Part shown: positions 11,511-15,779 of the stretch, one piece after another | Position numbering within the stretch: the stretch's first letter is position 1 | How the letters are laid out: every line of letters starts with the position of its first letter | Assembly: GCF_015070375.1 (NCBI RefSeq) | Contig: NZ_JADCLL010000001.1 | Location: 932,501 to 996,500 of the forward strand | Length of the DNA: 64,000 bases | Direction of reading: 5' to 3' | Source of the DNA: Nocardioides kribbensis | GTDB taxonomy: Bacteria; Actinomycetota; Actinomycetes; Propionibacteriales; Nocardioidaceae | Notes under the pieces: model-generated | What the model saw: the letters and a program-made list of their open reading frames with translations, nothing else | The model's database searches: none | What the model was told of the DNA's origin: nothing | Made by a program: the position numbers and the translations under genes

Positions 11511-11537
11511 CTAGCACTCGCTCACCCTGAGTGCCAG
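11511..11537 (-). promoter_or_regulatory. CIRCE operator 2 of groES-groEL
   Basis: CTAGCACTC-N9-GAGTGCCAG on the plus strand (the element is palindromic) is nearly a perfect CIRCE box, centred 35 bp from the first. It also lies 57 bp ahead of the divergent methyltransferase gene, so that gene might be affected. Confidence 0.85.
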
Positions 11538-11593
11538 GGCCGGGGTCCCCCGCGGCTGCGCCGGCACCCGGACGGCCTGACAGGATCGCGGCC

Positions 11594-12787
11594 ATGGACC
11601 TCGACGACCTGCGGTGGCTGCTCACCGACGACGGCCAGGCCCTGCTCGCCGAGGCGGTCGCCGTCCTCGCGGCCGAGCCCGCGACGCCGGACCCGCTGCG
11701 GGTCTCGGCCTCGCTGCGCCGGCGCCACCCCGGGACCGACCCCGCCCACGTCGCCGCGGCGCTCACCCAGGCCACGCTGCGCCGCCGCGCCGAGGCCAAG
11801 CTGGGTGAGGAGGCCCGGCTGCTCTACTTCACCCCCGACGGCCTGGAGCAGGCGACCCGTCGCGCCGTCGCCGACCACCGCGCGGCCCGGCTGCGCGCCT
11901 TCGAGGCGATCTCGCTGGTCGACCTGGGCTGCGGCATCGGCGGGGACCTGATGGCGGGTGCCCGGGCCGGCATCGTGTGCGCGGGGGTCGACCTCGACCC
12001 GGTGCGGGTCGAGGTCGCGCGGGCCAACCTGGCCGCGCTGGGCCTCGACGGCGCGACCGTCGTCGCCGACGCCACCACGGTCGACACCTCCCCCTTCGAC
12101 GTCGCCTTCGCCGACCCGGCGCGGCGCACCGCACGGGGTCGCACCTTCGACGTCGACGACTGGACGCCGCCCTGGTCGTTCGTCGAGGGCCTCCTGCGCC
12201 GCGACGCGTGCGTCAAGGTCGCGCCCGGGATCCCCCACGACCTCGTGCCCGATGGCGTCGAGGCCGAGTGGGTCAGCGACCACGGGGAGGTCAAGGAGGC
12301 CGCCCTGTGGGCGGGCCGGCTGGCCACCACCCGCCGCCGGGCCACCGTCATCGGCGACGGCGGCCTGGCCACGCTCACCGACGAGGACGACCCCGGGGCT
12401 CCGGTGCGGTCCCTGGGGGCCTACCTCTACGAGCCCGACGGCGCCGTCGTGCGCGCCGGGCTGGTCACCGCCGTCGCCGCGGCGCACGCCGGCGACGACG
12501 CGGGCCTGCTCGACCCCCACATCGCCTACCTCACCTCCGACTCCGCGACCCGTACGCCGTTCGCGCGCGGCTACGAGGTGGTCGAGGAGCTGCCCTACCG
12601 CGAGAAGCAGCTGCGCGTGGCGCTGCGCGAGCGGGGCGTGGGCCGGCTGACCATCAAGAAGCGCGGCGTCGACGTGGTGCCCGAGCAGCTGCGCAAGCGG
12701 CTCGCGCTGCAGGGTGACGGCGAGGCCACCCTGGTGATGACCCGTGTGGCCGGCGAGGGCACCGCCCTGCTGGTGCGCCCCCTCTAG
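11594..12787 (+). CDS. Class I SAM methyltransferase with THUMP-like C-terminal domain
   Basis: The 397-aa protein has an N-terminal helical region (residues 1-95). A Rossmann methyltransferase core follows, with VDLGCGIGGDLMAGA (motif I, about 112-126), GVDLDPVRVEVARANL (motif II) and FADPARRT, the NPPY-like position. A C-terminal THUMP-like part contains GYEVVEELPYREKQLR and RLTIKKRGVDVVPEQLRKRL. The DPARR motif and the C-terminal domain mark a conserved bacterial family thought to modify RNA; the exact target is unknown. It is divergent from groES. Its stop codon shares a CTAG with the stop of the convergent B12 gene. The ATG at 11594 follows CAGGAT by 7 bases, possibly a weak leaderless start. 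Confidence 0.8.
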   Translation: MDLDDLRWLLTDDGQALLAEAVAVLAAEPATPDPLRVSASLRRRHPGTDPAHVAAALTQATLRRRAEAKLGEEARLLYFTPDGLEQATRRAVADHRAARLRAFEAISLVDLGCGIGGDLMAGARAGIVCAGVDLDPVRVEVARANLAALGLDGATVVADATTVDTSPFDVAFADPARRTARGRTFDVDDWTPPWSFVEGLLRRDACVKVAPGIPHDLVPDGVEAEWVSDHGEVKEAALWAGRLATTRRRATVIGDGGLATLTDEDDPGAPVRSLGAYLYEPDGAVVRAGLVTAVAAAHAGDDAGLLDPHIAYLTSDSATRTPFARGYEVVEELPYREKQLRVALRERGVGRLTIKKRGVDVVPEQLRKRLALQGDGEATLVMTRVAGEGTALLVRPL

Positions 12788-13938
12788 CCCGGCACCTGCC
12801 CCGGGACGTGCCCCGGCGCCGCCCCGGCCAGGTGGACCCTCGCCAGGGGGTGGCCGCGCAGCGGCTCGGCCAGCAGGCCCCACACCTCGGCGACCAGGCC
12901 GTCGGGGGCGTGGCGGGCCTCGAGCACGCGCTCGAGCCAGTCGCGCACCTCGATCATGATCGTCTCGTCGCCGACCACGAGGGCGGCGGCGAGGCAGCCG
13001 AGGACGTGGTCGACGTAGCCCGGAAAGTCGGTCCACCAGTCGGGGGCGCTGGAGGGCGCCCCGACCGCGACGTCGTGGCGGGCGGCGATCGCGCGCACGA
13101 CGTAGGGCGCGATCTCGTGGTGGTAGTCGGCGATCCAGGCGGCCTCCACGTCGGCGGGCCCGGCCTCGGCGGGGCCCGTCTGCGGCACGCGCGGCGGGAG
13201 GGCGTCGATGACCCGCGCCGCCTCGCCCGGGGTGGCGGCGTAGGCGGTCGCGCCCAGCGCGAGGGCGCGGGTCTCGTCGCCCCCGAAGGCCTGGCCGCCC
13301 ACCACCACGGGGATGCCGATGGCCCGGATGGAGCTGAAGAGCGACTTCTGCCCGGCCAGCGAGGAGGTGAGCGAGGCGCTGAAGAGCACCGCCCGGGGCT
13401 TGAGGCTGAGGATGTCGTGCAGGAGCCCGGCGGGCTCGGGGTCACCGCCGACGTAGGTGACGCGGTAGCCCGCGAGCAGCAGCGACTCGGCCACGATCAG
13501 CGCCGGGAGCGCGTGGCGCTCGTGCTCGAGGCAGGAGACGATCACCAGCGGCGCCGAGGCGTCGGCCTCGGGGGCGAAGGAGCCCAGCCAGTGCACGAGG
13601 CCCTCGTTGATCGCCGTGGCCTGGTGCTCCTGGGCCACGCTCCACCCACCGGTCAGCCAGAGGTCGCCGATGCGGGCCTGGGCCGGCACGACGAGCCGCT
13701 CGATGACCTCCATGGGGGCGGCCCCGCCCTCGTGGCGCTCACGCACGACGGCCAGGGCGCCGTGGCGGTCGCCCGACTCGAGCGCGGCCCAGTAGGTGCT
13801 CCACGCCGACTCCCACTCCGGGTCGTCGACCGGGGCGAGGGCGACCGGGGGAAGGGTCGTCGTCGCGTCCTGGGTCGGCGTGACGCTCGTGCCGGTCGCC
13901 TGGTCGGGACCGGGGTCGTGCTGCACCTGCTGCTGCAC
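12784..13938 (-). CDS. Cobalamin-binding protein, CarH-photoreceptor-like, without DNA-binding domain
   Basis: The 384-aa protein has a Pro/Thr-rich lead (1-38) and a four-helix B12 cap domain (about 40-120). A Rossmann B12-binding domain follows (about 130-250: VIVSCLEHERHALPAL, YVGGD, VVGGQAFGG). W94, E104 and H105 match the W-x9-EH signature that seats adenosylcobalamin in light-sensing CarH proteins, and H142 (ERHALP) is the likely lower ligand to cobalt. CarH normally has an N-terminal MerR-type helix-turn-helix; none is seen. Instead there is a C-terminal helical region of about 125 residues with two Trp (DWWTDFP). The GTG start has AGGAGG 6 bases upstream. ACTTTA at 13965-13970 (TAAAGT on the coding strand) may be its -10. 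Output and partner are unknown. Confidence 0.75.
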   Translation of the reverse strand: MQQQVQHDPGPDQATGTSVTPTQDATTTLPPVALAPVDDPEWESAWSTYWAALESGDRHGALAVVRERHEGGAAPMEVIERLVVPAQARIGDLWLTGGWSVAQEHQATAINEGLVHWLGSFAPEADASAPLVIVSCLEHERHALPALIVAESLLLAGYRVTYVGGDPEPAGLLHDILSLKPRAVLFSASLTSSLAGQKSLFSSIRAIGIPVVVGGQAFGGDETRALALGATAYAATPGEAARVIDALPPRVPQTGPAEAGPADVEAAWIADYHHEIAPYVVRAIAARHDVAVGAPSSAPDWWTDFPGYVDHVLGCLAAALVVGDETIMIEVRDWLERVLEARHAPDGLVAEVWGLLAEPLRGHPLARVHLAGAAPGHVPGQVPG

Positions 13939-13986
13939 CGTGCACCTCCTGGGGGGACCTCACGACTTTACCCAGGCCGCCCCCGT

Positions 13987-14014
13987 CGGCCCTCGCCCGA
14001 GTGGGCGAGGGCCG
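13987..14014 (-). terminator. perfect 12-bp stem-loop after the mscR-hydrolase operon
   Basis: CGGCCCTCGCCC at 13987-13998 pairs perfectly with GGGCGAGGGCCG at 14003-14014 around the loop GAGT. It sits 15 bases past the stop of the hydrolase gene on the minus strand. Confidence 0.75.
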
Positions 14015-14028
14015 CGGGTGGAGCGGGA

Positions 14029-14670
14029 TCAGCCCGCCAGGCCGGCGCGCTCGGCGCCGATGGTGGTGTCGTCGCCGTGACCGGTGTGGACCACCGTCTC
14101 GTCGGGCAGGGCCAGGAGCTTCTCGCGGATGGAGGCCTTGATGACGTCCTCGTCGCTGTAGGAGCGGCCGGTGGCCCCCGGACCTCCCTGGAAGAGGGTG
14201 TCGCCGGTGAAGACGCACCCCAGCGCCGGGGCGTGGAAGCAGACCGCGCCCGGCGCGTGGCCCGGCGTGTGCAGCGCCCGCAGCACCGTGCCCCCGACGA
14301 GGATCTCGAAGCCGTCGCCGAGGTCGACGTCCCACAGGTGGCCCTGGCCGTCCTCGGAGAGGTGGGTGAGGTCCCACAGCGGCTTGTCGTCGGGGTGCAG
14401 CATGATCGGCGCCACCACCCGCTCGCGCAGGGCCGGCGCCACCCGCGAGTGGTCGTCGTGGGCGTGGGTCAGCAGGATCGCGCGCACGGTGCGCTCGCCC
14501 ACCAGCGCCAGGATGTCGTCGACCGAGTGGGGGGCGTCGATGACGACGCACTCGGTGTCGTCGCCGACGACCCAGAGGTTGTTGTCGACCTGGTGGGTCT
14601 CGCCGTCGAGGCTGAAGGTGCCGCTGGAGACGGCGTGGTCGATGCGCACTCCTCCGGCAGCGCCGCTCAC
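14029..14670 (-). CDS. Metallo-beta-lactamase-fold hydrolase coupled to mscR
   Basis: The 213-aa MBL-fold protein has the metal motif [14 protein letters not shown] (HxHxDH) and then [24 protein letters not shown] and [11 protein letters not shown], all glyoxalase-II-like. The GTG at 14668-14670 overlaps the stop of mscR (GTGA), so the two proteins are made together. A MBL-fold gene is also paired with mscR in mycobacteria. By context it may hydrolyse S-formylmycothiol, the product of MscR, to formate and mycothiol. That is inference; glyoxalase-type thioester hydrolysis is the family activity. A strong terminator follows. Confidence 0.8.
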
Positions 14671-15779
14671 AGGATCACCACCGAGCGCAGCACGCCGCCG
14701 TCGTGCATCTTGGCGAAGGCGGCCTCGACGTCGTCGATGCCGATCTCCTCGGTCACGAAGGCGTCGAGGTCGAGACGGCCCTGCTGGTAGAGGTCGACGA
14801 GCATCGGGAAGTCGCGGCTGGGCAGGCAGTCGCCGTACCAGCTGGACTTCAGGGCGCCGCCGCGGCCGAAGACGTCGATGAGCGGGAGCTCGGGCACGGT
14901 CATGTCGGGGGTCGGCACGCCGACCAGGACGACGGTGCCGGCCAGGTCGCGGGCGTAGAACGCCTGCTTCCAGGTCTCCGGGCGGCCCACGGCCTCGATG
15001 ACGACGTCGGCGCCCTCGGCCCCGGCGTAGGTCTGGGCGCAGATCTCCTTGATCGCCTCGACGGGGTCGGTGGTCGAGGAGTCGACTGTGTGGGTGGCGC
15101 CGAGGGCCTTGGCGGTCTCGAGCTTGCCGGCGTCGATGTCGACGGCGATGATCGGGCTCGCGCCGGCCAGCGCGGAGCCGGCGATCGCGGCCACGCCCAC
15201 GCCACCGCAGCCGATGACCGCGACCGACCTGCCGCGGCCCACGGCGCCGGTGTTGATGGCCGCGCCGATGCCGGCCATCACCCCGCAGCCGAGCAGGCCG
15301 ACGGCGGCCGGACGGGCCGACGGGTCGACCTTGGTGCACTGGCCGGCCGCGACCAGGGTCTTCTCGGCGAAGGCGCCGATGCCCAGCGCGGGGCTGAGCT
15401 CGGTGCCGGCGTCGTCGCCCTCGGCCAACGTCATCTTCTGGGTGGCGTTGTGGGTGGCGAAGCAGTACTGCGGCTCGCCCCGCTCGCAGGCGCGGCACTG
15501 GCCGCACACCGCACGCCAGTTGAGCACGACGAAGTCGCCGGGGGCCACCGAGGTGACGTCGTCACCGACGGCCTCGACGACGCCGGAGGCCTCGTGGCCG
15601 AGCAGGAACGGGAAGTCGTCGTTGATCCCGCCCTCGCGGTAGTGCAGGTCGGTGTGGCACACCCCGCACGCCTGGATCTTGACCACGGCCTCGCCGGGCC
15701 CGGGGTCGGGCACGTTGATCGTGGTGACCTCGACGGGCTGTCCCTTGGCCCGTGCGACGACGGCCTTCACCTGCTGCAT
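14667..15779 (-). CDS. mscR: S-(hydroxymethyl)mycothiol dehydrogenase / class III alcohol dehydrogenase
   Basis: The 370-aa zinc-dependent medium-chain dehydrogenase has the catalytic-zinc ligands in [13 protein letters not shown] and LLGHEASG. Structural-zinc cysteines lie in [15 protein letters not shown], and the NAD-binding loop is [20 protein letters not shown]. The sequence matches the mycothiol-dependent formaldehyde dehydrogenase group, which oxidises the spontaneous adduct of formaldehyde and mycothiol. The MBL-fold partner coupled at its 3' end strengthens this. The ATG has a clear GGAGGAG 4-5 bases upstream, and TAGGCT at 15825-15830 is a likely -10. Likely role: detoxification of formaldehyde, and perhaps denitrosylation of S-nitrosomycothiol. 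Confidence 0.85.

Follow-up and report, generated by a model that had tools for sequence, protein, structure and literature searches.

We found that a gene of the soil bacterium Nocardioides kribbensis encodes a protein that is, judged by its sequence and predicted fold, a member of the photocobilins, a family that has already been named and crystallised. What is new is the orphan and partly blind branch of this family to which the gene belongs. We consider it likely that the protein is a stand-alone photocobilin that forms a dimer with adenosylcobalamin (AdoCbl) in the dark, is switched by green light and acts on a protein partner, in a branch that has left its PP2C phosphatase; within this explanation, B12 binding, the photochemistry, the dimer switch and PP2C as the ancestral partner are the parts that we infer.

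The gene lies on the minus strand at positions 12784..13938 of the window (the whole 64,000-nucleotide stretch of DNA that was analysed), where a GTG at 13938 opens the frame and the last base of the stop codon is 12784; AGGAGG, a ribosome-binding sequence, precedes the start by 6 nt. The first-pass annotation had given the same coordinates without a strand, and full-length homologs in the genus at 49–63% identity place the open reading frame beyond chance. The 384-residue product consists of an extension (residues 1–45), a four-helix cap (~47–128), a Rossmann B12 domain (~129–246), a linker and a globin or photoglobin domain (~261–374); residues 258–384, the globin-like domain with its tail, are encoded at 12787..13167 (minus) and hold Y308, H311 and W334. 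Pfam matched B12-binding_2 at residues 49–115 (E 5e-13) and B12-binding at residues 132–241 (E 7e-14), both above cut-off. At E≤1 the search found no helix-turn-helix and no family beyond these two B12 domains, which bears out the original proposal that a DNA-binding domain is absent. The extension of about 45 residues (window positions 13804–13938) is rich in threonine and proline and is absent from the orthologs, whose starts align near residue 43–46; the long form of AerR has 40 extra N-terminal residues too (PMC9144470).

A phmmer search against PDB sequences matched the photocobilin SasPcob (8j2w/8j2x) over residues 50–371 (E 4e-33) and AbPcob (8j2y; E 5e-24), and the match to CarH in the same search was confined to the B12 part. 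With a profile of 16 orthologs these values became 9e-57 for 8j2w/8j2x and 5e-37 for 8j2y. An AlphaFold model of residues 43–384 built from 11 sequences (pLDDT 86.2, pTM 0.84) superimposed over 319 residues on both 8j2w (Z 32.2, rmsd 3.2) and 8j2y (Z 32.1, rmsd 2.7), and over 202 residues on CarH (Z 22.6); the model was also compared with known structures by Foldseek. Since the globin domain searched by itself against PDB sequences found no photocobilin, we assign its identity from the full-length match and the fold. The protein thus combines the cap, the Rossmann domain and a C-terminal five-helix globin-like domain with full-length similarity to photocobilins, whose C-terminal domain has been described as a globin-like biliverdin-binding domain in a family of two well-characterised members (PMC10979010). 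The family definition that we applied also includes binding of AdoCbl and biliverdin and conversion by green and red light. The first-pass annotation correctly saw an AdoCbl module of the CarH type, the lack of a DNA-binding domain and a helical C-terminal part (the model has helices at residues 261–372), but it missed the photoglobin, biliverdin-binding identity of that part. The cap-plus-Rossmann fold, shared with methyltransferase corrinoid carriers (MtbC- or MttC-like), and weak NCBIfam matches to pyl_corrinoid (E 4e-7) and MtbC (E 3e-6) would fit a carrier with no sensor function. These matches fall far under cut-off, however (29.7 bits where 215.3 are required, and 26.9 where 350 are), and the W-x9-EH motif, the globin domain, the full-length photocobilin match and the identified neighbours, which form no corrinoid methyltransferase system, make this reading highly improbable.

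To examine the ligand sites, we aligned the query with SasPcob, AbPcob and 38 loci. W94, E104, H105, H142 and W334 correspond to SasPcob W61, E71, H72, H108 and W296, whose roles were taken from PMC10979010. The four residues singled out at the outset stand at the positions first given for them. The window copy retains all four B12 residues, and both photocobilin motifs are present: W-x9/10-EH as W94, E104 and H105 (adenosyl-pocket codons 94–105 at 13624..13659, minus) and E/DxH as E140-R-H142, with H142 as the candidate lower axial cobalt ligand (13513..13515, minus). From these residues, AdoCbl binding and chemistry by the protein are likely. SignatureFinder's light signature (PMC11796333) was recovered in part: GxxW and EH are present, whereas GxxH and GxxxP are not in register, with H139 for the Gly of GxxH, E168 for the Pro of GxxxP, and GxxxP lying one residue later; group-B photocobilins (defined below) deviate at position 139 too. 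The two elements out of register, like the substitutions at SasPcob Asp270 and His137 described next, count against the proposed reading.

At the biliverdin site, W334, the counterpart of the Trp296 that packs on the biliverdin D ring in SasPcob, is invariant. Asp270, which holds biliverdin in SasPcob (PMC10979010), is Tyr308, at a position that varies in group-A and group-B rows alike, and G171 takes the place of SasPcob His137, which putatively forms a salt bridge to biliverdin. Because AbPcob, an accepted member, has His at the Asp270 position and binds biliverdin weakly (PMC10979010), Asp at this position marks strong biliverdin binding rather than membership. Since the key Asp270 is Tyr308, biliverdin binding by the N. 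kribbensis protein is uncertain. Its own genome encodes both a cobalamin adenosyltransferase and a heme oxygenase, and heme oxygenase was found in 13 of 17 group-A genomes versus 112 of all 215 (p 0.04, uncorrected for kinship and multiple tests); among group-B genomes, 9 of 18 have it. We did not take a link between heme oxygenase and biliverdin supply as evidence. The phytochrome domain in the N. kribbensis genome would use biliverdin anyway. That domain (PHY) and a SpoIIE/PP2C phosphatase domain occupy neighbouring positions in one 772-aa open frame (G000:C15:103163-104335; loci L156 and L163), probably a phytochrome-phosphatase and as such a further route from light to an output of this kind.

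It has been previously reported that the characterised photocobilins are dimers in the dark, undergo Co-C cleavage and a helix shift at E71/H72, become monomers and exert trans effects on an enzyme (PMC10979010). By homology, the four-helix cap and the Rossmann domain would enclose AdoCbl, H142 would coordinate the cobalt, W94, E104 and H105 would surround the adenosyl group, and the dark state would be a head-to-tail dimer. Green light would then break the Co-C bond, the cap helix with E104 and H105 would shift, the dimer would open, and the altered surface would act on another protein. Action through a protein partner, suggested in the first-pass annotation, is probable; trans action has been shown in vitro for stand-alone photocobilins (PMC10979010).

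To place the gene among its relatives, we searched 215 Nocardioides genomes, of which 44 had a match at E≤1e-12. A single-protein scan of genome contigs found no relative, and an alignment-based scan of them yielded 12 named Nocardioides loci. In the tree, the window gene falls in group A (17 rows, support 100/100; 21 copies once extra copies are included), apart from the other photocobilins, which form group B. In group B, 19 of the 21 regions (all but L093 and L107) have a PP2C gene as the direct upstream neighbour of the photocobilin gene. Near group-A copies we found none in 20 regions, the entire 64-kb window included; the scan covered regions of ~16 kb (one a 9.8-kb contig) and the window, with the N. 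abyssi locus L144 left out, and the Fisher test was run with 0 of 18 for group A in place of the complete 0 of 20. The guide for the PP2C search was a pair of Streptomyces plasmid relatives in PP2C-photocobilin-STAS clusters, and in the one group-B PP2C tested a SpoIIE domain is accompanied by a weak match to GAF. Six SpoIIE-type genes exceed the cut-off in the N. kribbensis genome, and none of the six is close to the linked PP2Cs: the best reached 97 bits, against medians of 178–302 bits among 8 linked loci tested of 19. The lack of a PP2C neighbour in 20 regions, together with a genome without a PP2C of the linked type, indicates that group A is orphaned from its apparent ancestral output. 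STAS, SpoIIE and PP2C proteins have been named as potential SasPcob interactors (PMC10979010); in the ancestral arrangement, a SpoIIE-type PP2C encoded next door would be the probable partner and would feed a STAS/anti-sigma switch. In the photocobilin, photoglobin and PP2C/SpoIIE literature, mostly as far as abstracts and passages go, blind orthologs are not reported, and we found nothing on B12-binding photoreceptors in Nocardioides.

Group-A genes occupy a shared genomic slot. In the window, the photocobilin gene follows an MBL-fold hydrolase gene (14029..14685, minus), which is preceded by the S-(hydroxymethyl)mycothiol dehydrogenase gene mscR (TIGR03451; 14667..15779, minus), and the other edge of the slot is formed by a convergent downstream gene for a methyltransferase with a THUMP-like domain (11531..12787, plus). 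Most group-A copies are likewise flanked by mscR-MBL on one side and the methyltransferase gene on the other; in 18 of 21, mscR-MBL precedes the gene on the same strand (with a 3.3-kb insert in between in L087), and the remaining three (L084, L088 and L089) are extra copies elsewhere. This arrangement could mean that the protein is a B12-dependent light regulator of the adjoining formaldehyde and nitrosothiol detoxification enzymes MscR and MBL. We regard this as unlikely, because the order of mscR-MBL and methyltransferase persists without a photocobilin: among the best 30 MBL loci from 78 genomes searched, the methyltransferase gene stands directly behind MBL in 7, and in 11 the slot is filled by another gene. 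Furthermore, the gap between the MBL and photocobilin genes in the window (13939..14028, minus), which contains the ribosome-binding site, also holds a perfect 12-bp GC hairpin (z −3.2, equalled in 1 of 200 shuffles), possibly a terminator separating the two genes, and the position may reflect plain inheritance. A promoter scan found nothing. Among the same best 30 loci, a photocobilin occurred in the flank of 2 and beyond the flank in a third (L121, in the genome of L087). We therefore read the slot as variable and its link to formaldehyde detoxification as unproven.

The gene that fills the slot in 11 of the 30 loci (L112, L118, L119, L125–L127, L129, L131–L133 and L137), between MBL and the methyltransferase gene, encodes a conserved small protein of ~193–227 aa with hydrophobic stretches at both ends, which we read as membrane-like; the one tested had no Pfam match. 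A TTGGA-N4-TCCAA palindrome that could be a regulator site occurs shortly 5' of the gene in L074, L077, L080, L081 and L083, which are the five orthologs of that set without the lower-ligand His, and it is absent across the whole window. In L087 (L151, Nocardioides litoris), the photocobilin frame shifts mid-gene and ~3.3 kb of other sequence lies between the gene and MBL; this copy is possibly decaying, or an assembly error.

The residues of the B12 site are frequently lost in group A. Of the 21 copies, 10 have A, R, L, K or Q in place of H105, 6 have lost E104, and 6 have lost the lower-ligand His, with two residues deleted from the loop that would carry it; in group B, none of the three is lost in any of 23 rows in each of two overlapping sets. 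When L072 and L087, with their disturbed reading frames, are left out, H105 is lost in 9 of 16 intact rows, and none of the 16 departs at W94, H311 or W334. Once the N-terminal part of L087, which is intact, enters the tree, two losses are needed and a single blind clade is rejected (p-AU 0.0115). This copy keeps EH and groups with two blind copies, and without it one loss suffices, so the count of two depends largely on the L087 row; the site was probably lost in two or more separate events. Six blind pairs gave dN/dS values of 0.22–0.36, compared with 0.04 in a single close pair of sighted copies and 0.21 between two sighted copies that share a genome. These results indicate that selection on blind copies is relaxed but not neutral, and that purifying selection continues. 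The window gene and its nearest relatives gave 0.53–0.54, values that are little informative in distant pairs with dS near saturation, and we therefore relied on dN/dS for close pairs only. A model of the fully blind ortholog from N. oceani predicts an equally confident fold (pLDDT 86.4; Z 31.6–32.0 to dark photocobilin structures).

H105 is missing from 10 of 21 copies, so dependence on the light switch does not extend to the entire branch, and light sensing should not be assumed for the whole group when its motif is lost repeatedly in orthologs of the same gene. The first-pass annotation, which proposed a light or B12 sensor, had overlooked this loss. One has to assume that the blind orthologs act independently of light or bind another ligand, and the AppA SCHIC domain, with heme bound in place of cobalamin (PMC9144470), is a precedent in this fold. 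The same losses, their occurrence twice on the tree, the continuing selection, the equal predicted fold and the invariant W94, H311 and W334 also speak for a broader reading, in which the branch has become an adaptor for protein interactions that needs no light, or senses another ligand (e.g. bilin or heme), and the window copy merely retains old B12 residues. We find this somewhat doubtful, however, as E104, H105 and H142 are kept in the window copy and 10 others, which drift would not long preserve, and selection is strong in the closest sighted pair. For the window protein, then, we favour the light-switched photocobilin.

We tentatively suggest that, in one genus, a light receptor was freed from its phosphatase output, relocated, and has repeatedly been turning B12-free while under selection. 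If true, group A would span a natural series that starts with a light sensor and leads to a light-blind regulator or to the sensing of another tetrapyrrole, with the window protein at the sighted end. Where B12 residues are lost and the rest is conserved, light input is separated from the output surface, and a comparison of sighted and blind orthologs would reveal the signal-carrying contacts and tell if the blind ones are driven by biliverdin, by heme or by no ligand. The cellular role of stand-alone photocobilins is described as still open (PMC10979010), and annotation alone is insufficient to call members of the family light sensors.

Among known systems, SasPcob of Saccharothrix syringae (8j2w, 8j2x; PMC10979010) is alike in domain order and length, with 32–34% identity in structural alignments; the W/E/H/H B12 residues and Trp296 are kept, and neither protein has a DNA-binding domain. 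The window protein differs in Tyr308 for Asp270, Gly171 for His137, Glu168 for Pro134, its N-terminal extension and the absence of a PP2C gene from the window. The photocobilin-GGDEF fusion AbDPcob (8j2y) carries the same module with Asp270 replaced by His and binds biliverdin weakly (PMC10979010), whereas the window protein has no fused enzyme domain. AerR/PpaA and the AppA SCHIC domain (7te2, 4hh0) are B12-fold regulators that act on a protein partner, CrtJ/PpsR, and have no globin domain (PMC9144470). An AerR/PpaA protein is a B12 domain of ~200 residues with no further C-terminal domain, and the window protein has an extra globin domain of ~110 residues; accordingly, the AerR structure aligns to model residues 1–207 only. 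CarH/LitR (5c8d, 3whp) shares the B12 module with W-x9-EH and the lower His, but in CarH this module is joined to a MerR DNA-binding domain and a globin domain is missing, the reverse of the window protein, which lacks the MerR helix-turn-helix and scores 58.7 bits against a cut-off of 400 for the CarH equivalog NF052513. The group-B photocobilins of Nocardioides and relatives (loci L090–L110) have the same domains at ~31–41% identity, lie directly 3' of the PP2C gene in nearly all regions and keep the B12 residues in all rows examined.
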